From the NCBI GenBank assembly GCA_021108215.1, contig JAIORK010000031.1, forward strand, positions 1 through 46,281: a stretch of DNA of 46,281 nt, given 5' to 3'. Position 1 is the first letter of the stretch. The number at the start of each line of letters is the position of its first letter. The notes under the pieces were generated by a model that ran no database searches, was not told where the DNA came from, and was given only the letters and a program-made list of their open reading frames with translations. The position numbers and the translations under genes are program-made. The stretch comes from a bacterium (lineage in GTDB: Bacteria; Oederibacteriota; JAAXVQ01; JAUVAV01). Below, one piece after another: positions 1 through 12,297 of the stretch.

Positions 1-3000
1 TGTGCTTCGCTCCGGTGAGTCCAAAATTATTATCCGCTACTGATTTCGCCGCATTACCTACATCCTTCACATACCAGGTTTGGGTGCGCCCCAACTCGTT
101 GGTCCCATCGGTGTATTCCGTGATGCCGTGGAAATCACTCGACTGAATGGTGGTTTCCGTATGCTTCGCTCCGGTGAGTCCAAAATTATTATCCGCTACT
201 GATTTCGCCGCATTGCCTACATCCTTCACATACCAGGTTTGTGTGCGCCCCAAGTCATTTTCCGCGTCTGTGTGTTCTGTGATGCCGTGATATTCGCTGG
301 AAGTGATTGTCGTCTCAGTGCGACGTGATCCTTTCAGACCAAAGAAATTGTTAATTTCAGACCAGATAGCATTTCCAATGTTTTCCTGATACTCGGTTTT
401 TGTGATGCCTAAACCATTTTTAGCCATGGTTTCCTGAGTAATACCATTGTACTTACTGGCCGTGATCTCCGTGGTGCTTACCAAAGAACCCTTTAAACCA
501 TAATTATTCCTGCTCGTGCTTTTTACGGCAATACCATAAGGCCCGCCATCCCGCGTATCAAAAAAAGTTTCCGTGACTCCCAACTCGTTGGCAGCTTTAG
601 AGTATCGCTGCAATCCATGCCGGGGATCCATATCAACCATGGTTTCTGTATAAAGCGCACCTTTGAGACCAAAATTATTCATCGAAATATTTTTGGATTC
701 CAATCCGGTTCTGGCATCAAATCCCAAACTCGTGGTTGTCCCAAAATCACTTGCGGAAACCCGCCGGGTGGTTATGCCTGTCTCCGTATGAAACTCGGAA
801 TGGGTTGTGGTATTACGAGAAGCATACAGTCCGACCTTGCTATAGCGAATGGTATCTATAGCGTCACCATGAATGTCATAGGTGCTGACAGTTTTACCAA
901 GATCATCTTCTGTGGAATTACTCTGAATACGGCCAAATTCGTCATACACATACTCGGCACTGACTTTGTATCTCCCGTTCAACAATCCGTAATTATCATT
1001 TTGTTCTGAATACCGGACCAACGAATCTTTATCAAACTCTTTTTTTATCGTGGTGAGAAGATTCTTACTCAGCGCTGTTGTCATGAATCCATTGCTGTCA
1101 TACCGGTTTGTTGTTATCGTGTTCCGACTAAATTCGAGACCATATTGATCATACCGAATATTGTGAGTGGCCAAGCCATCAATGTCGAACTCCGTTATCG
1201 TGCATCCCTTGATGTCTGTTTCTTTACTGTTGCTCAGGTAGCCGACACTGTTATATAAATTGACCGTCCATTGATTCCTGGCATGCCCATAGGTATTCAC
1301 ACGATGCGAGACCGTAACCAATTCATCAATATTATAAAAATTTTCAGTAGTGCCGTTGACATCTTCGCTACGACTATACGTCATATAAGCGTTGTTATCA
1401 TATTCAAAGGTCGTATGCTCTGTTCTTGGAAATCCGATTTTTTTCTCCTTGGTGGTTTCACGCATAAGACCGTCAACATCAAATTTATTATGATCTGTGA
1501 AGCGATCTGTATCCGTAATGCTGCTTACCAGTTCCCCTTTCTCATAAGTATACGTTGTCGTTTTTCTTTTTGGAAACCCATGAATATCCAGACGAACACT
1601 TTCTTCCATCTGACCATCACTATTAAAAGTATTCCGTGTTTGACCACGATCATCCAGCTGTACACTCGATTCGATATCACCACCATCGTCATAAAAGTTA
1701 TAGGTCCAATTCTCGCGAGGGAATCCATGATAATTAATGCGATGCACTTTATACGGAAGCTCATTTTCATTATAATAGGTAATCGTCTTGCCTTTTACGT
1801 CATAAGATACTGAAACGTGAAGCATCGCATCTTTGTAAGTTCTTTCTTCTTCTGTTTTGCGCGGATAACCAATTTCATTTTCACGGACAATTGTTTCCAA
1901 ATCGCCGTATTTATTAAATCTGGTAATCGTTTTTCCTTTATCATCCGTCATCAACGAATTCGAGATTTTTCCTTCGGCATACTGATTGACTGTGAATTTT
2001 TCCCCTCCCCATTTATCTGTATTATGAGCTTCGATGGGTTGGCCGGTTCCATTGTAATTGCTCTTGGTGATGCCATCCGGCCCCTGTTCCGTACTGGTAA
2101 TCATATATTTTCCGGCATATTGATACGTAGTGACAATAACTTTTCCATTGTGCTTGGTATAGGTTGTTTCCTCGGGCTGATCCGAGGTTGCATCCCGATT
2201 GACCGAAACTGTCACGCCAAATGAACCGTATGTATATTGGACACGTTTGCCACTGGCGGTCATGCCATAGCTTGTGATTTCAACCACACCGCTGTTTTTA
2301 ACCATAACCTTACGCTCAGCCAATTTGGTGTCTTCCACATAATCCGTCATAGTCATACTTTTTCTGTCTTTTGTGATGCTGAAAACCAAACGGTTGGCAT
2401 CATTATACGTATAATCTGTAATCGAATCCTCATTTTCAGAGCGAATACGGTTGCCCTTGCCATCATAAATGTTCTTGGTTTTTTTTCCGTACTGATCAGT
2501 CTCAGCAAGCACATTACCGTTGTCATCGTACTGTTTGATCACCACGGACGAGTAACTTTGACCGCCAAATTTATAAGTAATAATCTCAGAGGACGATATC
2601 AAATTACCCTTTTCATCGACAACATTGGTAATAGTGGTTTCGCTCTGATCAGTTCTTGTTCCGACAACCTTGCCGGTTTCATCATAAATGGTTAGTTTCT
2701 GTGTCGGTTTAGTACCATCGGAGGGCTTGGTTTCTTCGTTCCGCGAAAGAATTTTTCCCTCTGCATTGGTTTGGTATGTATAAGTATGTTGTCCATTTGC
2801 ATTTTCCATCTCCCTGACTCGACCCTGATCATCATATTTCTTCGTGGTAATGTCTTCCATCAAACCATTGGAAGTCGGCATCATTTTAATCTCTTTTTTC
2901 TCAATTAAAACACCTTTTGAATTCACAATATTTTCAAATGTGGTTTTAATTCCATTACGGCGTTCTTCAACCATTTGGCCATTTTCATATTTCTTGGTAA

Positions 3001-3733
3001 CAACATTCCCGGCAGAATCACGTTCTACCACGCCGACTTTCTCGCCATCCTCATTGTATTGATTCTCGATATCGGTCCGGATATTGTTGCCGTCAATTTT
3101 AGCAATAACTTCACCATTTTTCGGGTTCAGGATGCTGGTTATAGTTTTATTGCTGGAGAGGTCAGTCTCGATATAACTGACTGTTTTTCCTTTATCATTT
3201 TTTATATGGTTGGAAAATATTTTAGTTCCTTGAGAATCTGTGACTTGTATCGTATTGCCCTTGTCATCAAACAACTTGGTGAACACCCCGGCAGCGGAAT
3301 GCTTCGCCATTTTTTGCAGTTTACCGGTAGATGATTTAAAATACTTGGTGTGTGAAATCAGCGCACCGTCGGGAGCCCTCTCCTCCGTCGGCATACCGTC
3401 TTCATACAGTGTGGTTTTACCGTACTTATCGGTAACTTTAGTAAGCTGGCCCTTGTCATTGTACTTCCGAACTTCATTATTCATCAATGTAATCGTAATT
3501 TCCGGTTCATCGCTCACATCCAACACCGAAGTGCTGCGAATGTTCTGCCCTTGATCTTCCAGTAATTTTATAATCTTAGGAAGAATTTTCTCTTCTACCA
3601 CTCCGGCATTGGACAGGGACACGCCTATAAATAGCAACAGGGTGCCTAAGAGTGCGAGTGTCCCCAGCCAATTGATCCTGCCAAAGACTAAACTCAAAGA
3701 ATTCATTTTTGGATACGCATGAATGGAAGCCAT
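1..3733 (-). CDS. Giant secreted YD/RHS-like repeat protein (3' end outside window)
   Basis: An uninterrupted reading frame starts at ATG 3733 and runs off the left edge, giving at least 1244 residues. AAGGAGG sits 7 bases before the ATG. Residues 18-38 are one hydrophobic helix followed by SNA, a signal peptide or membrane anchor. Residues about 60-600 carry irregular YD-like units (KYDDQGRV, YDGKGNRIRSEN, YNDANRLVFS) typical of RHS/YD-repeat surface proteins. From about residue 622 the units become regular, 48-49 residues long and ending in G(F/Y)PR or GFPK. From about residue 1015 they become 53-residue units with the motif NNFGLKG or NNFGLTG. The family is known for extracellular shells and toxin delivery, but no toxin, RHS core or cleavage motif is visible, because the C-terminus is missing. 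Neighbours give no functional clue. Confidence 0.85.
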   Translation of the reverse strand, partial: MASIHAYPKMNSLSLVFGRINWLGTLALLGTLLLFIGVSLSNAGVVEEKILPKIIKLLEDQGQNIRSTSVLDVSDEPEITITLMNNEVRKYNDKGQLTKVTDKYGKTTLYEDGMPTEERAPDGALISHTKYFKSSTGKLQKMAKHSAAGVFTKLFDDKGNTIQVTDSQGTKIFSNHIKNDKGKTVSYIETDLSSNKTITSILNPKNGEVIAKIDGNNIRTDIENQYNEDGEKVGVVERDSAGNVVTKKYENGQMVEERRNGIKTTFENIVNSKGVLIEKKEIKMMPTSNGLMEDITTKKYDDQGRVREMENANGQHTYTYQTNAEGKILSRNEETKPSDGTKPTQKLTIYDETGKVVGTRTDQSETTITNVVDEKGNLISSSEIITYKFGGQSYSSVVIKQYDDNGNVLAETDQYGKKTKNIYDGKGNRIRSENEDSITDYTYNDANRLVFSITKDRKSMTMTDYVEDTKLAERKVMVKNSGVVEITSYGMTASGKRVQYTYGSFGVTVSVNRDATSDQPEETTYTKHNGKVIVTTYQYAGKYMITSTEQGPDGITKSNYNGTGQPIEAHNTDKWGGEKFTVNQYAEGKISNSLMTDDKGKTITRFNKYGDLETIVRENEIGYPRKTEEERTYKDAMLHVSVSYDVKGKTITYYNENELPYKVHRINYHGFPRENWTYNFYDDGGDIESSVQLDDRGQTRNTFNSDGQMEESVRLDIHGFPKRKTTTYTYEKGELVSSITDTDRFTDHNKFDVDGLMRETTKEKKIGFPRTEHTTFEYDNNAYMTYSRSEDVNGTTENFYNIDELVTVSHRVNTYGHARNQWTVNLYNSVGYLSNSKETDIKGCTITEFDIDGLATHNIRYDQYGLEFSRNTITTNRYDSNGFMTTALSKNLLTTIKKEFDKDSLVRYSEQNDNYGLLNGRYKVSAEYVYDEFGRIQSNSTEDDLGKTVSTYDIHGDAIDTIRYSKVGLYASRNTTTHSEFHTETGITTRRVSASDFGTTTSLGFDARTGLESKNISMNNFGLKGALYTETMVDMDPRHGLQRYSKAANELGVTETFFDTRDGGPYGIAVKSTSRNNYGLKGSLVSTTEITASKYNGITQETMAKNGLGITKTEYQENIGNAIWSEINNFFGLKGSRRTETTITSSEYHGITEHTDAENDLGRTQTWYVKDVGNAAKSVADNNFGLTGAKHTETTIQSSDFHGITEYTDGTNELGRTQTWYVKDVGNAAKSVADNNFGLTGAKH
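3..644 (-). repeat. Tandem 159-bp (53-residue) coding repeats
   Basis: Units begin near 3, 162, 321 and 480, with a further related unit starting near 645, all in the same frame of the giant repeat protein. The first 53 bases of the units at 3 and 162 are identical, and the first ~80 bases differ at only two positions; the second halves have diverged more. Each unit encodes GLTGAKHTET...FHGITE...NELGRTQTWYV...GNAAKSVADNNF in variants. The unit starting at 480 carries about two extra codons. Confidence 0.85.
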
Positions 3734-4381: not shown

Positions 4382-5191
4382 TTATGGATTTATTTGAATC
4401 ATGGCGAGCATTCGTCCGGTATTGCCGCCATCCCGCCGGTGGGAAAAATAATAGCTCCGATGACTGTAAGTACACTCACGAATAACTTTTATTTTGGAAC
4501 GATGAAGCCCAGACGCAATGAGCTGATCATGGGCGGCTTTCCATAAATCAAAAAATGTTTTCCGGGAGTTTTGGTTTGTATACAGTGCATCAGGATTTAC
4601 TTTTCGAAGCTTTTCCAGCGCTTCCCCCTGGACCTCAAACCTCTTAGATCCTATGGCCGGACCGATAACCGCTCTTATTGAACCGGGATGCGATTGTTTT
4701 TTAAGAATCATTCTCCGTACAGCTCCGGGAAGTATCTTTTTTTCAATTCCCCGCCACCCGGCATGCACTGCGGCGACACAGCGCTGCCGCTCGTCTGCCA
4801 AGAGAATCGGAACACAATCCGCAATCGTAATTGCCAGCGGTAAACCTTTATACGCTGTCATCAAACCGTCTGTTTGCGGAATCGCTGTTTCAACTGAAAA
4901 CCACCCCCGGCCTTGCTGTCCAGGGCCAACGACCGTCACCGTGTGATGATGAACCTGCTGTCCTACAACGGGCAGTGCAGGACCCATCCCGGAAACGTTT
5001 AGTGCCTTTTTCCTATTCCTAAGAATCGTTTCAAAAGCATCCGACGTATTCAACCCCAGGTTGAGACTTCGAAAATCACCGCCGCTCTTGCCGCCCTGCC
5101 TTAAAAAAAAACATGCCCTGCATCCAATAGCCTCAAAAAAAGGAATACGCCAATATCGAATTCCCTGTTTTTCTTCCAAAATAATATCCAT
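4382..5191 (-). CDS. pgeF: Polyphenol oxidase/laccase-domain protein, YfiH family
   Basis: 269 residues, normal for the family. These cytoplasmic enzymes are zinc-dependent purine nucleoside phosphorylase/adenosine deaminase-like enzymes (earlier called multicopper oxidases); some are implicated in peptidoglycan editing. The three metal/catalytic positions are visible: His81 in QQVHHH, Cys126 in ADCVPIL and His143 in VHAGWRG. The later conserved segment reads IGPAIGSKRFEV (177-188) where relatives usually have a GPCIG..CYEV type sequence, so the usual cysteines are absent. The start lies 8 bases after the stop of the upstream histidine kinase, so the two are probably co-transcribed. Confidence 0.9.
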   Translation of the reverse strand: MDIILEEKQGIRYWRIPFFEAIGCRACFFLRQGGKSGGDFRSLNLGLNTSDAFETILRNRKKALNVSGMGPALPVVGQQVHHHTVTVVGPGQQGRGWFSVETAIPQTDGLMTAYKGLPLAITIADCVPILLADERQRCVAAVHAGWRGIEKKILPGAVRRMILKKQSHPGSIRAVIGPAIGSKRFEVQGEALEKLRKVNPDALYTNQNSRKTFFDLWKAAHDQLIASGLHRSKIKVIRECTYSHRSYYFSHRRDGGNTGRMLAMIQINP

Positions 5192-5199
5192 TTTTAAAA

Positions 5200-6894
5200 T
5201 TACATTTTCCTCAGTATGCGCGACGGATCCCGGTCATCATGTTTCTTTTTTTTCACCATGTTTCTAATATTTTTTGGACCGTCGATGGGTAATTGTACAA
5301 AAAAAGTGGCCCCCTGGCCTTTCTCGCTTTCAACCCATATTCGCCCTTCGTGTAATTCAATCAGATCCCTGACAATGGTCAGGCCCAATCCGATGCCGGC
5401 CGATTCACGCGTCAAAGACCTTTCCGCTTGCTGAAATTTTCTGAAAATCTTTTCTTTCTCCCATGCCTCAATACCGATCCCTGTATCGGATACCTGAATT
5501 TCAACACGACTTTCATCAACACGATTCAATTTAACTTTAACCTCCCCGTGGGCCGGTGTAAATTTCATGGCATTTGAGAGTAAATTATCCAAAACTTGTT
5601 TGATTCTTCCTGTATCACCCAGTACCCGGGGGGTTTCCGCATCAATTTCGCCGGAAATACGAATAAAACTTTTTTTGGCAATTTCTCTAAATTCTTCCAT
5701 GCTCTCGCGAACCAGACGCACCATATCCATATGATCCACTTCAAGCTTCATTTGCCCGGATTCCAATCTGGAAAGATCGAGTAAGTTGGTAATAAGTAGG
5801 TTTAAATGGTCTGCATTGCTCTTGGCCATACTTAGATATTTTTTATACCGCTCAGCACTTAATTTTGTACCATCGGTCAACAAAAGATTGAGCGCCCCTT
5901 TGATGATCGTAAGCGGGGTCCTAAGTTCATGAGATGTAATGGAAAGGAAATAGGATTTCATTTCATCCAAATCCTTCAACTGCGTGATGGTATCTTCCAA
6001 TTCGATGGTACGCGCAGTTACTTTTTTTTCAAGCGCTTGGCTGAGCTCAATCCTCTCTTCCAACAATTTCTCAAGCAAATTATTATTTCTACGGAGTTGC
6101 CGGTTCTGCTTCTCGACAATCTCGTATTCATAAAAGAGCTCCTTTTTAATCTTTTCCATCTGCTGATTCCTAAAACTAAAAAAACGGACCAGCTGCGACC
6201 ATCGTCCCGGTTTGCTTTTCCACTCCAGGCGATACATACAACTTGAAGTCCCATAGTCAATACCCGCATAATGAAACACTCCCATCTTATCCGGTGCACC
6301 GATTGCTTCTTTCACACCTGACCCAAGATTGGTTCTCCAAACCTTTCCTTGCTCCAGGGAAAATGTCGCATCCGCAACCACCCCTTTTTCCCACAGGGGT
6401 ACGGAACACTGGGTTTCACTTATACGCATGCTCTTAACCCGCAGGTTGTCCAACATCGACTGGTAAAGTCCCTGGGTATAATCACACGCACCACGCGACA
6501 TTTTCTTTTTAGGATGTCTTTCAATAACCGCGTGGTGTGATCCCATTTCACGTATTTTAATCTTGGATAACGAACTAAATAACGCAGCATATTTCACTGA
6601 AAGTTTTATGGCATGGACCGGATTGGAATCAAGCCTAATTAAGAGATCGACAATCCCGGTACTCTCCAGTATGACGGCTTCCTGTCCTACCTTAAACATA
6701 ATATGGTCGTCCTTAAAAATCTTTTCCGCCCGCAGATAGAGAATATCCATTTCATCAGCAGATATCCAGTGATGTTCATTGGTCAACTGCACCATGTCAA
6801 ACCCCGCCAATAATTCTGTCAGCGATCGGGGACGATATTTTTTAAAATATTGGATAAGTGTATTACTTGTCCGACAATTAATCTCACGCTGCAT
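5200..6894 (-). CDS. Sensor histidine kinase with V4R-like N-terminal region
   Basis: About 564 residues from ATG 6894, which has AGGA just upstream; an in-frame TTG at 6915 is a less likely start. Residues 1-195 form a soluble sensor with CDYTQGLYQSML and a later ETQC..P...G motif, reminiscent of V4R or related small-molecule-binding domains; this assignment is tentative. A long coiled coil spans about 245-315. The kinase core is complete: H-box SHELRTP with His322, N-box DNLLSNAMKF, G1 DTGIGIE (about 470) and G2 GIGLGLTIV (about 500). No membrane segment is seen, so it is probably cytoplasmic. No response regulator is encoded nearby. Confidence 0.88.
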   Translation of the reverse strand: MQREINCRTSNTLIQYFKKYRPRSLTELLAGFDMVQLTNEHHWISADEMDILYLRAEKIFKDDHIMFKVGQEAVILESTGIVDLLIRLDSNPVHAIKLSVKYAALFSSLSKIKIREMGSHHAVIERHPKKKMSRGACDYTQGLYQSMLDNLRVKSMRISETQCSVPLWEKGVVADATFSLEQGKVWRTNLGSGVKEAIGAPDKMGVFHYAGIDYGTSSCMYRLEWKSKPGRWSQLVRFFSFRNQQMEKIKKELFYEYEIVEKQNRQLRRNNNLLEKLLEERIELSQALEKKVTARTIELEDTITQLKDLDEMKSYFLSITSHELRTPLTIIKGALNLLLTDGTKLSAERYKKYLSMAKSNADHLNLLITNLLDLSRLESGQMKLEVDHMDMVRLVRESMEEFREIAKKSFIRISGEIDAETPRVLGDTGRIKQVLDNLLSNAMKFTPAHGEVKVKLNRVDESRVEIQVSDTGIGIEAWEKEKIFRKFQQAERSLTRESAGIGLGLTIVRDLIELHEGRIWVESEKGQGATFFVQLPIDGPKNIRNMVKKKKHDDRDPSRILRKM

Positions 6895-7016: not shown

Positions 7017-7209
7017 TAGTGTCTCACACTGTTTGTCCTTTATACATATCATTACAAGAAGCGTTTTTCACGACAAAACAATCTATTTTGAACTCAAAGT
7101 GCTTGGAAAATCAAAATTGCGACCAACGGAAGTCCCATACGATCCCCCATCCGGTCGGGGCTTCGCTCTGCCCGCAATAACAAACACGCCATCAATTAAA
7201 AGTGCACTA
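7017..7209 (+). mobile_element. MITE-like ~200-bp element, copy A
   Basis: Begins TAGTGT and ends CACTA, matching the ends of copy B at 19018-19221 in opposite orientation. The internal 43 bases at 7116-7158 are identical to 19074-19116, and flanking blocks (GCG.GACAA.GCAATCT type sequence, CGCAAT.ACAA) are clearly related but diverged. No ORF is inside. The terminal CTA overlaps 7207-7209, which is also the stop codon of ccdA, so the element appears to have inserted at the very end of that gene. Confidence 0.65.
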
Positions 7210-7932
7210 AAATCCAAACCGGCCAAAGATGCTAAACCAGGAGGAAACCCGCATCATGGCACCCATCATCATGACCACACCAATCATCATCAACAACCCG
7301 CCGGCAATGATTTCAATCCAACGCATATACCTGCGAAATTTTTGCGACCAACTTAAAAAACGTTCTACCGCAGCAGCAGCAAGAATAAATGGAATACCCA
7401 AACCCAGAGAGTATACGATCAGTAAAAAAATCCCTTTTCCCACTGTATCTTGTGTTCCGGCCAGCGCCAGTATTCCCGCCAATAAAGGACCTATGCAAGG
7501 TGACCAGCCAAAGGCAAAAGCCGCACCCACAATAAATGCCTTGCCCATATTCATCCCCTGGGATTGAACACGCATCCGTTTCTCAACCATTAAAAAAGGA
7601 ATGCGAATAATCCCGGTAAGATGAAGGCCCAAAACAACCAGCAACAAACCAGCGAGTTTACCAAGCCAAAATACATTTTGAGAAAACCATTTCCCCAAAA
7701 ATGTAGCCGAGGCGCCCATGGCAACAAAAATAACTGTGAAACCCGCCACAAAAGCCACTGCGGTTAGCAGTATTTTTTTCCGCACCGCCTTCCCGGAATC
7801 ACCTTTTATTTCCTCCAGGCTCGCGCCTGCAAGAAAGGACAAATACGCCGGCACCAGTGGCAATACACAGGGAGAAAGAAACGAGATCACCCCTGCAAAA
7901 AAAGCACTAAAAATACCAATTTCTAAATTCAT
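7207..7932 (-). CDS. ccdA: CcdA/DsbD-type thiol-disulfide transporter
   Basis: 241 residues from ATG 7932, which overlaps the TGA of the upstream kinase as ATGA; a GTG three codons upstream (7941) is possible but has a larger overlap. Six hydrophobic segments are visible. The two signature redox cysteines are in FLSPCVLPLVPAY (Cys22) and FGWSPCIGPLLAG (Cys146). The family moves electrons from cytoplasmic thioredoxin across the inner membrane to extracytoplasmic thioredoxin-like proteins, for cytochrome c maturation or periplasmic thiol reduction. A TlpA-like partner is encoded in the same run at 10947-11522. Its stop codon coincides with the end of the MITE-like element. Confidence 0.92.
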   Translation of the reverse strand: MNLEIGIFSAFFAGVISFLSPCVLPLVPAYLSFLAGASLEEIKGDSGKAVRKKILLTAVAFVAGFTVIFVAMGASATFLGKWFSQNVFWLGKLAGLLLVVLGLHLTGIIRIPFLMVEKRMRVQSQGMNMGKAFIVGAAFAFGWSPCIGPLLAGILALAGTQDTVGKGIFLLIVYSLGLGIPFILAAAAVERFLSWSQKFRRYMRWIEIIAGGLLMMIGVVMMMGAMMRVSSWFSIFGRFGF

Positions 7933-9758
7933 ACTGTACACGCATTTTCCGGGGTGGGCGGTTGATCCGGCAAGACTATATTAAAACGGCTGCCAATGTT
8001 TGGTTCGCTCTCCACCCGCATACTTCCTTTGTGCATTTCAATAATTCGTTTTGCAATCGTCAAGCCCAATCCTGCCCCTCCCCTTTTTCGTGTCAATGTT
8101 TTTTCAGCTTGATAAAATCGTTCAAAAATCTTCCCCTTCACTTCATTTGACATACCGATACCTGTATCCGAAACAGCCAGCTCATATTGATGCTTTTCAG
8201 GAATGTGTTTGGCAGACAGGGTTATTTTTCCGGGGCCTTCAGAAAATTTAATCGCATTGACTACCAAATTCGTAAGCGCCCGTTCAACCTGTTCCGGGTC
8301 GGCCATCAGCCCGGGAAGTCCCTTGGGAAGCTTAATAACCAATTCCTGGTCCTTCATTTGTAACTGCGGGCCTAAATCCACACTAATTTCTTCATACAAA
8401 TCATAAAGATTAATTTCCTCATAATGCAGCGACAATGTTCCCGAATCCAGTTTCTGCATCGCCAGCAAATCCTCAATCATATGTGCCAATTTCTGACCGT
8501 TTTCCAGCGCAATATTAATATAACGGCTTAATTTGCTTTTATCAAATTTGTCCACCGCGCTATTGGCATAACTAAGAAACCCGATAATCGATGTAAGCGG
8601 CGTCCTCAATTCATGTGAAATCGTGGCAATAAACTCGGTTTTAATCCGGTCAACTTCTTTGAGTTTAAGCACATCTTCCCGCACCTGTTCATAAAGCCAG
8701 GCATTCTCAATGGCCCACCCCGCCTGAACACCGATCGCCATAAAAATATCCCATTCCTCATCCAGAACTTTTCGATCCACTTTGGAAAAAAGCGTCATCA
8801 CTCCCTGAATCGTCCCTTTTGCCCGAAGCGGCACTGCCACGACTAATTTAATATCCGCTTTCTTCATTTCCGGCATATCCGGACCGTCAACCTGCAAAAA
8901 ACCATTGCCGGCCGCCCTACCGATAATTCCCTCACCTTTTTTAACCCTCTGGATTTTGTGCAATAAATAATCGGGAATATTAATCTGAGCACGAATAACG
9001 ATCGTTTCCTCATTTTCAAAAGGCAATACAACCCCCATATGAAAACCGGTCAATTCCAAGACCAACCGTAAAATGTTATTTAACAACGTATCGAGTTCCA
9101 GTGATTGACTGGCAACGGTGGATACATGATTAAGCACCAACAGGGTTTGGGAAAGCACCTCAAGTTCATTGGTTCGCTGCCTAACTTTTTCCTCCAACCG
9201 CTCATGAGAATCCCGCAAAGCTTCTTCAAGTTTAATCTCATGTGAAATATCCTTGAAAATCGTTATACTGCCACCCTGAATACCATCTTCATTTTCATCG
9301 CGCAACTGAGAAATAGACATCAAAATTTCTGCAATTCCACCATCTCTTTTACGGATCCGTGAGCGGATGTTTCGATAACTTTTTTCAATCGGAAGTTTTG
9401 CGATTAATTCAAGATAATGCTTTGGTTCAACAAATAAAAAATCCAATGAACGCCCGATGACTTCCTGAGTTTTATAACCCGTAACCTCTTCGGCGATCTT
9501 ATTGAATGTATTGACTTGATCATGGGCATCAAGTACCCAGATCGCATCCGGCGAGTTGGCAAGCAAATTGGTGACATATTGGCTGATCCGCAATAATTCC
9601 TGACGCGCCATTTCAAGATCACTGTTCTTTTGTTCCAACTCAATATTTGTATCTGTAAGCATGATGTCACGTTTTAAAAGCATTTTCGTCATGTGATCAA
9701 GTGCTTCAAAAGCCTGATAAATGTCCCCGCGGGGTGTTAAAAAAGGATTTTTAGACAT
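7929..9758 (-). CDS. PAS-GAF sensor histidine kinase
   Basis: 609 residues, start 6 bases after the FIST gene stop. Order: coiled coil (15-60), PAS (about 60-175, with NSPDAIWVLDA), coiled coil, GAF (about 205-355), short coiled coil, HisKA with SHELRTPLTS (His382), HATPase with N-box TNLVVNAIKF, G1 DTGIGM (531-536) and G2 GAGLGLTIA (561-569). No membrane segment, so it is likely cytoplasmic. The tight coupling to a FIST protein upstream and ccdA downstream suggests it reports a ligand or redox signal. There is no receiver domain in the protein and no response-regulator gene in the window. Confidence 0.9.
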   Translation of the reverse strand: MSKNPFLTPRGDIYQAFEALDHMTKMLLKRDIMLTDTNIELEQKNSDLEMARQELLRISQYVTNLLANSPDAIWVLDAHDQVNTFNKIAEEVTGYKTQEVIGRSLDFLFVEPKHYLELIAKLPIEKSYRNIRSRIRKRDGGIAEILMSISQLRDENEDGIQGGSITIFKDISHEIKLEEALRDSHERLEEKVRQRTNELEVLSQTLLVLNHVSTVASQSLELDTLLNNILRLVLELTGFHMGVVLPFENEETIVIRAQINIPDYLLHKIQRVKKGEGIIGRAAGNGFLQVDGPDMPEMKKADIKLVVAVPLRAKGTIQGVMTLFSKVDRKVLDEEWDIFMAIGVQAGWAIENAWLYEQVREDVLKLKEVDRIKTEFIATISHELRTPLTSIIGFLSYANSAVDKFDKSKLSRYINIALENGQKLAHMIEDLLAMQKLDSGTLSLHYEEINLYDLYEEISVDLGPQLQMKDQELVIKLPKGLPGLMADPEQVERALTNLVVNAIKFSEGPGKITLSAKHIPEKHQYELAVSDTGIGMSNEVKGKIFERFYQAEKTLTRKRGGAGLGLTIAKRIIEMHKGSMRVESEPNIGSRFNIVLPDQPPTPENACTV

Positions 9759-9764
9759 TGACCC

Positions 9765-10928
9765 TCATCCCAACGTTAGAATGACCACGGTTTCATTATG
9801 AAAACGGGTGTTCGTCTTCCCGGCCCGACCCAAAGGCGCAATCTCTCCATAACCAAAAAATCCGATGACCGGGACGCTTTTACCTATAATTTCACGAATC
9901 ACTTGGATCTCAGCATTCGCCTTTAATCCCAACACGCGACGGCGGGCAACCCCGCTAAAAACCAATGCAACCTGTGGTTTGGTATCGCCCATTTGATCCA
10001 ATGCATCCTGTGCCGCCTTGCGCGCAGCAGACAACGCCTCTTCCACACTGCCAATCATAAGACGCACTTCTGAATTTTCAGGTATTTCAGCAGTAAATTT
10101 TATAGCACCATCGGCTTCAACAAAAAGCGGTGCGCGCAACAAATAACCATCCACCTCAGGTGCCGGTATGCCCAATGGATAATAAACCGCCAACCTTGCC
10201 AAGGGTTCATCACGCAAACGCTTGGTATACGCGCTAAAATATTCATCGTACAATTTTATGGCCGAAATATTATTAATCTCCATCAAATGATTCCCATGCG
10301 TCCGGGTCGCCGTCACCGGCAGTCCAACCGGTTCCCACCCATGATGGACTCCGATTCCATACCGGACCGAACTGTCCAGCTTAACCCCTACCAGGGTTCC
10401 GGTTAAAACCGCATCATTGATATATTGATATGTTTGCTTAAACTGCGCATCATCACCCGCCGCACCGCCGATCATGGGCATTTGATTCCCCAAGCCGGCC
10501 TGCATCCCTCTGACAACGGCTTCGCCATCACCAGCCACGCCGTCAGTTAACAAAAGAATTAACGCCCCGGCTTCGCCGCCAAGTTTTGAACCGAGCATTT
10601 TTCCGGCTAAAAACGCATCCTCCGCAATATCACCACCAGCTGCCAAATTCACCTTGATACCGGCAATGCCCAACAACCCAATCGTTTTATCCTCTATGCC
10701 GGTAGTGTAAATCTCACCGGCCGAACTACAGCCAATCAAAGGAACATTTTTATAAAATTCACGGACCGTTTCCAACACATCATGCGAATTGTAGAAAGGA
10801 TTTAAAAACAAAACCAACAAGTCCGGTTGCTGTGCGCCAAGTTGAAACTGACAAGCCTCCGCAGCTTGTCTGGCAGCTTGTTTTGAATTCCTATCCTTCC
10901 CTTTTCCCACCCCAAACGTCAAAGCCAT
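9765..10928 (-). CDS. FIST-domain signal-sensing protein
   Basis: 387 residues with both FIST_N (about 30-215, including GCSSAGEI at 66-73) and FIST_C (about 225-365). AAGGA precedes the ATG. FIST proteins are small-ligand sensors paired with histidine kinases or chemoreceptors; one characterised branch, NosP, binds haem and nitric oxide and controls a co-transcribed kinase. Here the next gene, 6 bases downstream, is a PAS-GAF histidine kinase, which fits that layout. The ligand cannot be read from the sequence. No signal peptide or membrane helix is visible. Confidence 0.88.
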   Translation of the reverse strand: MALTFGVGKGKDRNSKQAARQAAEACQFQLGAQQPDLLVLFLNPFYNSHDVLETVREFYKNVPLIGCSSAGEIYTTGIEDKTIGLLGIAGIKVNLAAGGDIAEDAFLAGKMLGSKLGGEAGALILLLTDGVAGDGEAVVRGMQAGLGNQMPMIGGAAGDDAQFKQTYQYINDAVLTGTLVGVKLDSSVRYGIGVHHGWEPVGLPVTATRTHGNHLMEINNISAIKLYDEYFSAYTKRLRDEPLARLAVYYPLGIPAPEVDGYLLRAPLFVEADGAIKFTAEIPENSEVRLMIGSVEEALSAARKAAQDALDQMGDTKPQVALVFSGVARRRVLGLKANAEIQVIREIIGKSVPVIGFFGYGEIAPLGRAGKTNTRFHNETVVILTLG

Positions 10929-10946
10929 TTTTAGTGTCCTTGCCTC

Positions 10947-11522
10947 TTATTTTTTCTGCAACCAAGTCAGCAGGTCGCTTTCAAACGTTTGTTCTGAAAC
11001 CACACCTTCAATCCTTTTCAAAATACGTCCGTTTTTTGATAACACCAAAATCATGGGCGCACCATTAATTTTTTGAGCATTGGTAATAATTTCTTTCGGG
11101 AGCACAGCATAGGGTAACTCGGTTTTTTGAGCACGCACAGTCCGTTGAACCGTCTCCGCTTCCGTATCCAAAGCAATCGCTGTCATGGTCAGTCCCGTTT
11201 GCTCATAGCGACGCCAAAGACGATTTAACCAGAGAGTCATGGCTTCACACGGCTGACACCACGTTGACCAAAAATACAGAACAACGATCCGGCCTTTATC
11301 CGTTTCCGAAGATTGCCAGGCGCCGGTGGAATTATAAAACCCGTAGACGACTTTTTCATGCTTAAACGAAAAATAAGGATCGCGAATAACCACCGCAGGT
11401 GTCGTCACCGGCAAAATCGTGTCCGGCGGAACCTTTGTGCTTTGGACACCGACAATGGCCGTCCCCGCAAGCAGCAACAGAATAACACCTATAGTACTTT
11501 TCACGCGCATACCCATTTCCAT
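10947..11522 (-). CDS. TlpA/ResA-like membrane-anchored thioredoxin
   Basis: 191 residues. An N-terminal helix (about 9-27) anchors it or acts as signal peptide. The thioredoxin fold follows, with the active site FWSTWCQPC (84-92) and the cis-proline segment GAPMILV near 154. Such proteins reduce disulfides in apocytochromes or other exported proteins and take electrons from CcdA, which is encoded three genes downstream. The start is four bases after the coaX stop; in-frame ATGs at 11516 and 11510 are alternatives. Confidence 0.87.
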   Translation of the reverse strand: MEMGMRVKSTIGVILLLLAGTAIVGVQSTKVPPDTILPVTTPAVVIRDPYFSFKHEKVVYGFYNSTGAWQSSETDKGRIVVLYFWSTWCQPCEAMTLWLNRLWRRYEQTGLTMTAIALDTEAETVQRTVRAQKTELPYAVLPKEIITNAQKINGAPMILVLSKNGRILKRIEGVVSEQTFESDLLTWLQKK

Positions 11523-11526
11523 TCCA

Positions 11527-12297
11527 TCAACCCCGGCTCTTTATCGTGTCCCATGCAATCCGCAAACCTTCCAAAGTAAGCTCCGGACGCACTGCTTGAA
11601 TCGCTTCACAATAAGGTGCTACCAGGAAAGCCAGACCGCCGGTGGCAACCACTTTTACCGCTGGTCTGATTTCTTTTTTCATTTGCGTAATTAAAAGGGA
11701 AACCGCACCGGCTGCCCCTAAAATGATTCCCGACCTCAGGCTCTCTTCTGTATTCCGCCCCAAAGCATGCGCACCTGATTTAAGCTCCACCCGATGCAAA
11801 AGAGAGGTTCCGCGGGCGAGCGCATCCGCCGACAAAGTCAACCCCGGCAAGATCGCGCCGCCCAGATATTCTTTTTTTTCAGAAACCACATCCACGGTAA
11901 TCGCGGTCCCAAAATCGACAATAATCACGGGTGCGCCGAATAGTTGAACTGCCGCCACCGCATTGACCAGACGGTCTGCGCCCACCACTTCCGGTGGATT
12001 GTACTTATTGGTGACAGACAACGGCGTCGTTGATTGCACCACTTCCACGGGTGCCCCAAACGCATGTTGCGCAGCCTGAATCATTACAGAATCGAGTTCA
12101 GGTACAACGCTTGCAATAATAACACCCTCCCACTGCGGCTCAGGACTGATTCCCTTTACCAACCCTGAAAGAATCAGACCGGTTTCATCGGCGGTTGCAT
12201 AACGATTGGTACTAACCCGAAACTCTTTGATCAAAATTTGCTGATCAAAAACACCCAAACAGATATGTGTATTCCCGACATCCATGGCGATCAGCAT
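11527..12297 (-). CDS. coaX: Type III pantothenate kinase
   Basis: 256 residues, first step of coenzyme A synthesis (pantothenate to 4'-phosphopantothenate). The ASKHA-fold motifs are present: DVGNTHICLGVFD at the N-terminus, GADRLVNAV (106-114), and DFGTAITVDVV (128-138) followed by GGAILPGL. Its start overlaps the end of birA by 7 bases, a common birA-coaX pairing in bacteria. Confidence 0.96.
   Translation of the reverse strand: MLIAMDVGNTHICLGVFDQQILIKEFRVSTNRYATADETGLILSGLVKGISPEPQWEGVIIASVVPELDSVMIQAAQHAFGAPVEVVQSTTPLSVTNKYNPPEVVGADRLVNAVAAVQLFGAPVIIVDFGTAITVDVVSEKKEYLGGAILPGLTLSADALARGTSLLHRVELKSGAHALGRNTEESLRSGIILGAAGAVSLLITQMKKEIRPAVKVVATGGLAFLVAPYCEAIQAVRPELTLEGLRIAWDTIKSRG

Follow-up and report, generated by a model that had tools for sequence, protein, structure and literature searches.

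A conserved N-terminal kinase motif linked to a clade of FIST proteins in one bacterial order and in Patescibacteria

Introduction

The FIST protein NosP is encoded beside a kinase and regulates that kinase in trans, as described in excerpts from PMC12570481. A 2022 review (PMC8846402, likewise in excerpts) considered ligand binding and signal relay by FIST proteins to be little understood. A FIST domain is also present in FBXO22, a component of an SCF ubiquitin ligase, where it serves as a protein-docking surface, and the excerpted part of the preprint concerned (PMC11185555) reports no obvious ligand pocket for it; the likeness of FIST to the chorismatase and cyanuric acid hydrolase folds has been published in the same source. 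In the open-licence literature we found nothing on a docking motif between FIST and a kinase, nor on FIST in Patescibacteria. The pairing of FIST with a kinase is itself already known, and the new element in this work is a FIST-linked kinase motif which crosses kinase lineages.

Results

A FIST-kinase pair in a compact gene block

The window, meaning the whole stretch of 46,281 nucleotides that was analysed, is contig 31 of a draft genome of 3.56 Mb (97% complete), whose nearest named relatives are records of candidate division FCPU426, Firestonebacteria and Goldbacteria. As judged from ORF coordinates, coaX, tlpA, the FIST gene, HK1 and ccdA all lie on the minus strand (Table 1). The initial annotation, placed at 9765-11522, which corresponds to FIST plus tlpA, had described tight packing of these five genes and a PAS-GAF kinase following FIST after 6 bases. 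Both descriptions hold, with computed distances of 4 (coaX-tlpA), 18 (tlpA-FIST), 6 (FIST-HK1) and -13 bases and with the domains assigned by Pfam; the last value is the HK1/ccdA overlap when ccdA starts at GTG, which becomes 4 bases with the inner ATG start (ATGA). The transcription unit exceeds the five genes first noted, valS-nadC-birA being located 5' of coaX. On the 3' side, ccdA is followed by a 291-base gap, by HK2, a second soluble kinase, and then by pgeF. No response regulator gene was seen inside the conserved block. Further along, a large open-ended ORF (window 2-3733, minus strand) has a weak RHS-repeat match only.

Table 1. Positions of the FIST-HK1 pair, the FIST-linked motif and neighbouring genes in the window
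Feature	Position	Strand	Domains, basis and remarks
FIST protein, 387 aa	9765..10928	-	FIST N 10269-10823, FIST C 9834-10262; cytoplasmic, putative auxiliary sensor
HK1, 609 aa	7929..9758	-	PAS 9279-9569, GAF 8703-9098, HisKA 8439-8642, HATPase 7962-8300 (Pfam)
FIST-linked motif, HK1 residues 17-49	9612..9710	-	Profile and alignment
TlpA/ResA-like thioredoxin-fold protein with N-terminal anchor	10947..11522	-	Pfam; CQPC at 11247-11258
CcdA/DsbD_TM-like membrane protein	7207..7941	-	Pfam; start GTG 7941 or ATG 7932
coaX, type III pantothenate kinase, upstream housekeeping neighbour	11527..12297	-	Pfam; phylum census
HK2, 571 aa	5200..6915	-	N-terminal sensor 6403-6894; HisKA/HATPase 5284-5961
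pgeF (peptidoglycan editing factor), last gene of the conserved block	4382..5191	-	Model matches; relatives

In the phylum, a FIST of whatever kind is found in eight of 45 genomes, and orthologs of the window FIST, full-length or partial, are found in seven of the eight genomes of the order (G000, G001, G002, G003, G005, G006 and G007); all of these genomes are drafts in which genes may be missed. HK1 is the gene directly after FIST in all seven. The five-gene order, which the initial annotation had suggested looking for elsewhere, is complete in three of the seven other genomes of the order, so that it is intact in four of eight (G000, G001, G002 and G006), spans two families and is more than chance. 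It is interrupted by contig ends and otherwise compatible in G007 and G003, the gene downstream of ccdA in G003 not being HK2, while in G005 it is split between tlpA and FIST, with coaX-tlpA and FIST-HK1-ccdA on two contigs and other ORFs flanking both. Neither FIST nor coaX was found in G004. Since coaX-birA, in some cases with nadC, occurs without tlpA-FIST in other families of the phylum (L105, L111 and L115, for example), the block from tlpA to HK2 appears to be restricted to the order of the window. The window's genome also encodes a second, unrelated FIST paralog (L023:6029-7225 on G000:C50; also L024 and L025). No kinase adjoins the L023 paralog, and its surroundings, alike in two relatives, resemble by eye a MoxR/DUF58/VWA/TPR (Bat-type) cluster.

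The FIST protein falls in a set apart from annotated NosP

The FIST protein carries the two Pfam domains (PF08495/PF10442) in tandem, with 145.8 bits for FIST N (E 1.9e-42, cut-off 23.2) and 112.2 bits for FIST C (E 2.6e-32, cut-off 28.5). It scores 82.3 bits with the NosP equivalog model NF041558, whose cut-off is 450, and the relatives L020 and L043 score 93.8 and 113 bits. What stands of the NosP/NahK-like arrangement put forward in the initial annotation is thus a conserved, tightly spaced FIST-kinase pair, while NosP identity is not borne out by this score. An AlphaFold2 model of FIST (pLDDT 92) has the FIST domain of FBXO22 as its closest solved fold (Z 21.4-22.5 over 258-275 residues, 15-16% identity), followed by chorismatase (Z 14-15) and by cyclic amide hydrolases such as cyanuric acid hydrolase (Z 10.7-12.6); chorismatase and cyanuric acid hydrolase are enzymes that bind metabolites. 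A sequence search of PDB chains with FIST gave no match, though FBXO22 was matched by fold.

A search of named genomes using the FIST alignment yielded 31 loci, of which 12, the Patescibacteria-type, hold the closest FISTs outside the order (35-42% identity). In the tree, the order's FISTs and those of Patescibacteria are placed within one 27-row set (support 99/99), apart from annotated NosP, the paralogs and other bacterial FISTs; the set also includes L150-L153, a second Patescibacterial class, and the FIST of G415. L054, a partial FIST from a genome already represented by L022, entered neither the FIST alignments nor the tree. L062-L064 and L066-L069, which match FIST in part only, were excluded from the tree, and L059 is present in alignment A5 and not in the tree.

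A conserved motif precedes the PAS domain of HK1

HK1, of PAS-GAF-HisKA-HATPase architecture, is a soluble kinase with no transmembrane segment by hydropathy and with His382 in SHELRTP; Pfam detects no receiver domain (Response_reg) in it, and the protein ends after HATPase. At its extreme N-terminus, immediately before PAS, it displays a motif of about 33 residues, D..xKxLxxRDxxL, in which D21, K25, L27, D31 and L34 are invariant and R30 nearly so in an 18-row alignment. The consensus common to the N-termini of FIST-adjacent genes is ELDRIAKMLIRRDLELxE. In the window, the gene after the FIST of the 27-row set matches the motif with 56.8 bits (E 9.5e-15) when the model includes the window sequence itself, and with E 2.9e-4 when a Patescibacteria-only model is used.

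In the 12 Patescibacterial loci, the gene after FIST encodes a histidine kinase in eight and, in L050, L055 and L056, a small coiled-coil-like protein lies directly after FIST. A pattern scan of all loci placed the motif next to FIST in seven of seven cases in the order and in 11 of the 12 Patescibacterial loci. In the twelfth, L049, the contig stops 283 bases past FIST, before the motif site, and the end residues resemble, by eye, the stretch preceding the motif in L042. The same scan gave no match at L057-L069, the partial FIST matches L062-L064 and L066-L069 included, nor in the surroundings of the order's FIST paralogs.

By HMM, no homology was detectable between the motif and the N-terminus of NahK, and the motif therefore does not account for FIST/kinase pairs generally. 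The NahK/ErcS model NF041832 (cut-off 400 bits) is not among the best 25 of 87 models for HK1, the 25th of which scores 120 bits. HK1 has neither a receiver domain nor a NahK-like N-terminus, and a NahK identity is not supported for it. A by-eye link of the motif to the segment DRKLLERSLELSS in the neighbours of L150-L153 and to RVERSMD of Azospirillum NahK gave no HMM signal and was dropped. In L150, L151, L152 and L153, the genes after FIST encode kinases or a protein of 103 aa, whose N-termini show another conserved segment (FDxDRKLLERSLELSSxEL, as read by eye) that may represent a second FIST partner segment.

The motif and the FIST clade occur together

The motif profile A3 comprises 33 positions and 18 rows. 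Across the 45 genomes of the phylum, it gives one match in each of seven (E 2.9e-14 to 6.4e-17), in every case in the gene that follows FIST, while among the remaining 38 genomes two have marginal matches (E 0.04) and 36 have none. Every strong A3 match in the 12 Patescibacterial genomes is located at the FIST locus, and one weak match (E 0.02) lies elsewhere in G052. Cross-detection was carried out on 1,872 ORFs (385,928 residues). A profile built from the order only (6 rows) retrieves the Patescibacterial neighbours with E 8.6e-17 to 8.6e-4, above unrelated ORFs among the matches listed; reciprocally, a Patescibacteria-only profile (12 rows) retrieves the HK1s of the order with E 8.3e-8 to 2.9e-4, all of them stronger than its best unrelated match (E 0.009).

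In a 379-genome sample of the Patescibacterial phylum, the motif is present in seven genomes, FIST of the same clade in seven and both in six, a co-occurrence with a Fisher p of 1.2e-11, or of 5.7e-10 without G046, whose sequence is in the model. Other FISTs were found in five of the sampled genomes. FIST and motif are adjacent on one contig in five of the genomes having both (G046, G185, G196, G384 and G410); three of these (G196, G384 and G410) were found from the motif alone via a 17-residue core, and the neighbouring gene proved to be FIST. In G076, FIST and the motif kinase are on different contigs, and this genome was counted as having both. G415 was counted as without motif, the near-motif having been noticed after counting: it has a FIST and no profile match, and a kinase two genes away reads LDQSARLLLRRDLDL (E 0.078), which is a motif by eye only. 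G329 has the motif where a contig ends, and no FIST was found in this genome. The linkage between FIST and motif could reflect the co-inheritance of two neighbouring genes.

The motif is carried by two kinase lineages and by kinase-less proteins

We compared the motif kinases by their catalytic cores in a tree of 30 rows, restricted to ORFs in which the H, D-G and G boxes could be recognised. The HK1s (support 100/99) and the Patescibacterial kinases (96/94) separate, and a single clade of motif kinases is rejected by a difference of 40.5 log units (p-AU 0.00027; 18 vs 12 rows). The kinase cores are not one clade and the FISTs fall in one set; the association of FIST with the motif is therefore kept across different kinases. 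Apparent membrane segments precede the motif in L046 and L141 (by eye), tandem motifs are present in L045 (two copies) and L047 (four), and directly after FIST in L050, L055, L056 and L133 the motif is found on proteins of about 125-160 aa without a kinase domain. The four copies in L047 (7337-7687) belong to a FIST-adjacent kinase and would let several FIST molecules bind.

An alternative reads the motif as a generic dimerising coiled coil of the signalling-helix type, co-inherited with FIST and devoid of any docking function, the link between FIST and kinase being functionally loose. The polar D, K and D are invariant and R is near-invariant, no strong match is found elsewhere in the 45 phylum genomes, and the motif occurs on kinase-less proteins beside FIST and crosses kinase lineages, all of which goes against a generic helix, although heptad-like leucines and coiled-coil-like flanks are visible by eye and the small protein of L050 has coiled-coil Pfam matches. 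We regard this alternative as unlikely, with some weight left to it.

Haem, cytochrome c and thiol functions

The TlpA-like protein of the window is thioredoxin-like and has a CxxC (CQPC), and scores 62.3 bits with the ResA model NF002854 against a cut-off of 170. CxxC is kept in four of six TlpA orthologs, including all those of f1 seen, and is lost in both orthologs of f2 (L020:5275-5949 and L021:1603-2190), where the gene position is kept. The ccdA product matches DsbD_TM with 65.7 bits and has one cysteine per half (Cys25 and Cys149), as in CcdA-type proteins; both membrane cysteines are kept in six of six relatives. The 12 annotated Patescibacterial loci yielded no homolog of tlpA or ccdA.

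Porphobilinogen deaminase (HemC) is required for tetrapyrrole synthesis generally. In our census it is found in one of the eight genomes of the order (G006 only) compared to 17 of the 37 other genomes of the phylum, and in none of the 12 Patescibacterial genomes with the same FIST clade. Ferrochelatase was found in 0/8 genomes of the order versus 11/37 in the rest of the phylum, and Cytochrom_C_asm (PF01578) above cut-off in 0/8 versus 16/37, G003 showing one sub-threshold match. These counts speak against two suggestions of the initial annotation, namely haem-based NO sensing and cytochrome maturation as the output. In a NosP-type sensor, FIST would bind haem and NO would alter HK1, and hence the maturation of exported thiols or cytochromes. 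Such a sensor would agree with a FIST gene adjoining a kinase gene as in the NosP operons of the PMC12570481 excerpts, with the weak match to the NosP model and with the conserved cysteines of CcdA. It would also agree with H377, which is invariant in the window's clade and common to all ten aligned FISTs, two annotated NosPs included, so that the FIST residues cannot rule haem out; H196 of the window FIST is not present in NosP, and in the open-licence literature we found no statement on the haem-ligand residue of NosP. Set against the NosP score of 82 versus 450 bits, the missing ferrochelatase and cytochrome-c assembly genes, the lack of HemC in seven of eight genomes and the TlpA of f2 without CxxC, the NosP-type sensor is very improbable. 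An NO-haem-cytochrome circuit was thus rejected as unlikely in these organisms on the basis of the censuses, the NosP score and the CxxC loss. Haem could be taken up from outside, and NO or redox state could also be sensed by a haem-free route.

A haem-free sensor of thiol or redox state was also considered, in which Cys67 of FIST or the GAF domain of HK1 would read cytosolic redox and the unit would adjust the TlpA/CcdA reduction of exported non-cytochrome proteins. We consider it rather improbable: Patescibacteria keep FIST and the motif kinase at loci where tlpA and ccdA were not found, the TlpA active site is lost in f2 and tlpA is not adjacent to FIST in G005, even though FIST-HK1 is located between tlpA and ccdA in four genomes, Cys67 is nearly invariant in the alignment and the CcdA cysteines are conserved. 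Since neither f2 relative has CxxC in its TlpA, conservation of a thiol function in this protein is not upheld. TlpA and CcdA are operon neighbours, and the FIST-HK1 pair does not require their thiol role.

HK2 as a possible second branch

HK2 has no transmembrane segment, and no Pfam family is above cut-off in its N-terminal domain. In a profile comparison, this domain is related to V4R-like Patescibacterial proteins of about 200 residues (probability 92%, E 6.7e-7) which lie near FIST or a motif kinase (L043, L045, L047, L055, L137 and L138), while controls gave 0.0-0.8% (TlpA 0.8%, three FIST alignments at most 0.4%). Among the 1,872 ORFs, the best non-self matches of the HK2 N-terminal profile are four of these V4R-like proteins (top E 1e-4). 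V4R itself (PF02830, threshold 31 bits) has no match in the HK2 of the window and gives 18.5 bits for the HK2 of L019. An AlphaFold2 model of the HK2 N-terminus, made from 3 sequences, had a mean pLDDT of 50 and was kept out of the fold search. The HK2 of G001 and of G005 has only 335 aa and is without the V4R-like domain; since this is the state of HK2 in genus g2 (335 aa, L017:4015-5022 and L018:10008-11015), the sensor domain has been lost or gained. HK2 is probably a second branch of the FIST-HK1 signalling module.

Solute-binding (Bmp, SBP_bac_3), Cache/HAMP and receiver-domain proteins are encoded nearby in L043 and L044. The region L043:1531-9913 and L138 look like dense signalling islands, with solute-binding, Cache/HAMP, V4R-like, PAS, kinase and receiver domains, which is notable given genomes of about 1 Mb or less.

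Discussion

With little better than even confidence, we propose that a cytoplasmic FIST sensor docks on the motif of HK1 and tunes the kinase through a ligand which is probably not haem-bound NO. The gene pair, the motif, its co-occurrence with the FIST clade, its presence in two lineages of kinases and, in almost every carrier, the absence of genes for haem and cytochrome c were read from the sequences; docking, allosteric control, the class of ligand and the output are what we infer. FIST would act as a trans-acting auxiliary input subunit of HK1 and would dock on the helical motif of about 33 residues at the extreme N-terminus of the kinase. Binding of a small cytosolic ligand would alter the autokinase or phosphatase activity of HK1, the motif-bound FIST shifting the setting of the following PAS/DHp domains in a manner reminiscent of NosP, which acts in trans according to the excerpts of PMC12570481. 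The phosphoryl group would then be transferred to a response regulator encoded elsewhere. Because the FIST domain of FBXO22 is presented, in the excerpted part of PMC11185555, as a docking surface without an obvious pocket, docking is consistent with the fold and a small-molecule ligand is uncertain.

A broader proposal, plausible to us yet short of probable, is that the D..xKxLxxRDxxL helix is a portable docking tag. It would recruit a soluble FIST to unrelated signalling proteins (PAS-GAF kinases, apparently membrane-anchored kinases, kinase-less adaptors and tandem arrays) and would have moved between kinase lineages together with the FIST clade, in bacteria of which most cannot synthesise haem, so that the ligand would be other than haem-bound NO. 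If the motif is a docking site, the residues to mutate are named, kinases with FIST input become predictable from sequence alone, and the FIST clade is one whose ligand cannot be presumed to be haem and NO. The results also caution against labelling FIST-kinase pairs as NosP/NahK from their layout.

Several known systems can be compared with this locus. The N-terminal domains of HK2 in relatives and FIST-adjacent Patescibacterial proteins are weakly like V4R sensor proteins, below the Pfam gathering score. The DsbD_TM and thioredoxin-fold neighbours recall the CcdA/TlpA (ResA) relay, from which the window differs by a ResA score of 62 versus 170 bits and by a genome in which no cytochrome-c assembly genes were found. 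FBXO22 shares the fold of the window FIST, whereas it is eukaryotic, is fused to an F-box, binds the BTB domain of BACH1 and is 15-16% identical. The pairs of Nitrosomonas, Microvirga, Armatimonadota and Actinomycetota (L060, L100, L061 and L057) also have FIST followed by a kinase or an ATP-binding protein, but they are without the motif and their FISTs are outside the 27-row set. Compared to NosP/NahK (NosK) of Proteobacteria, the window pair is far under the NosP cut-off, HK1 is without a receiver domain and has a different N-terminal segment, the operon has no response regulator gene, and the hosts are mostly without haem synthesis. What the two have in common is a single-protein FIST gene adjoining a soluble kinase gene (annotation of L098/L099 and excerpts of PMC12570481), FIST being encoded beside its own kinase, here with a 6-base gap.
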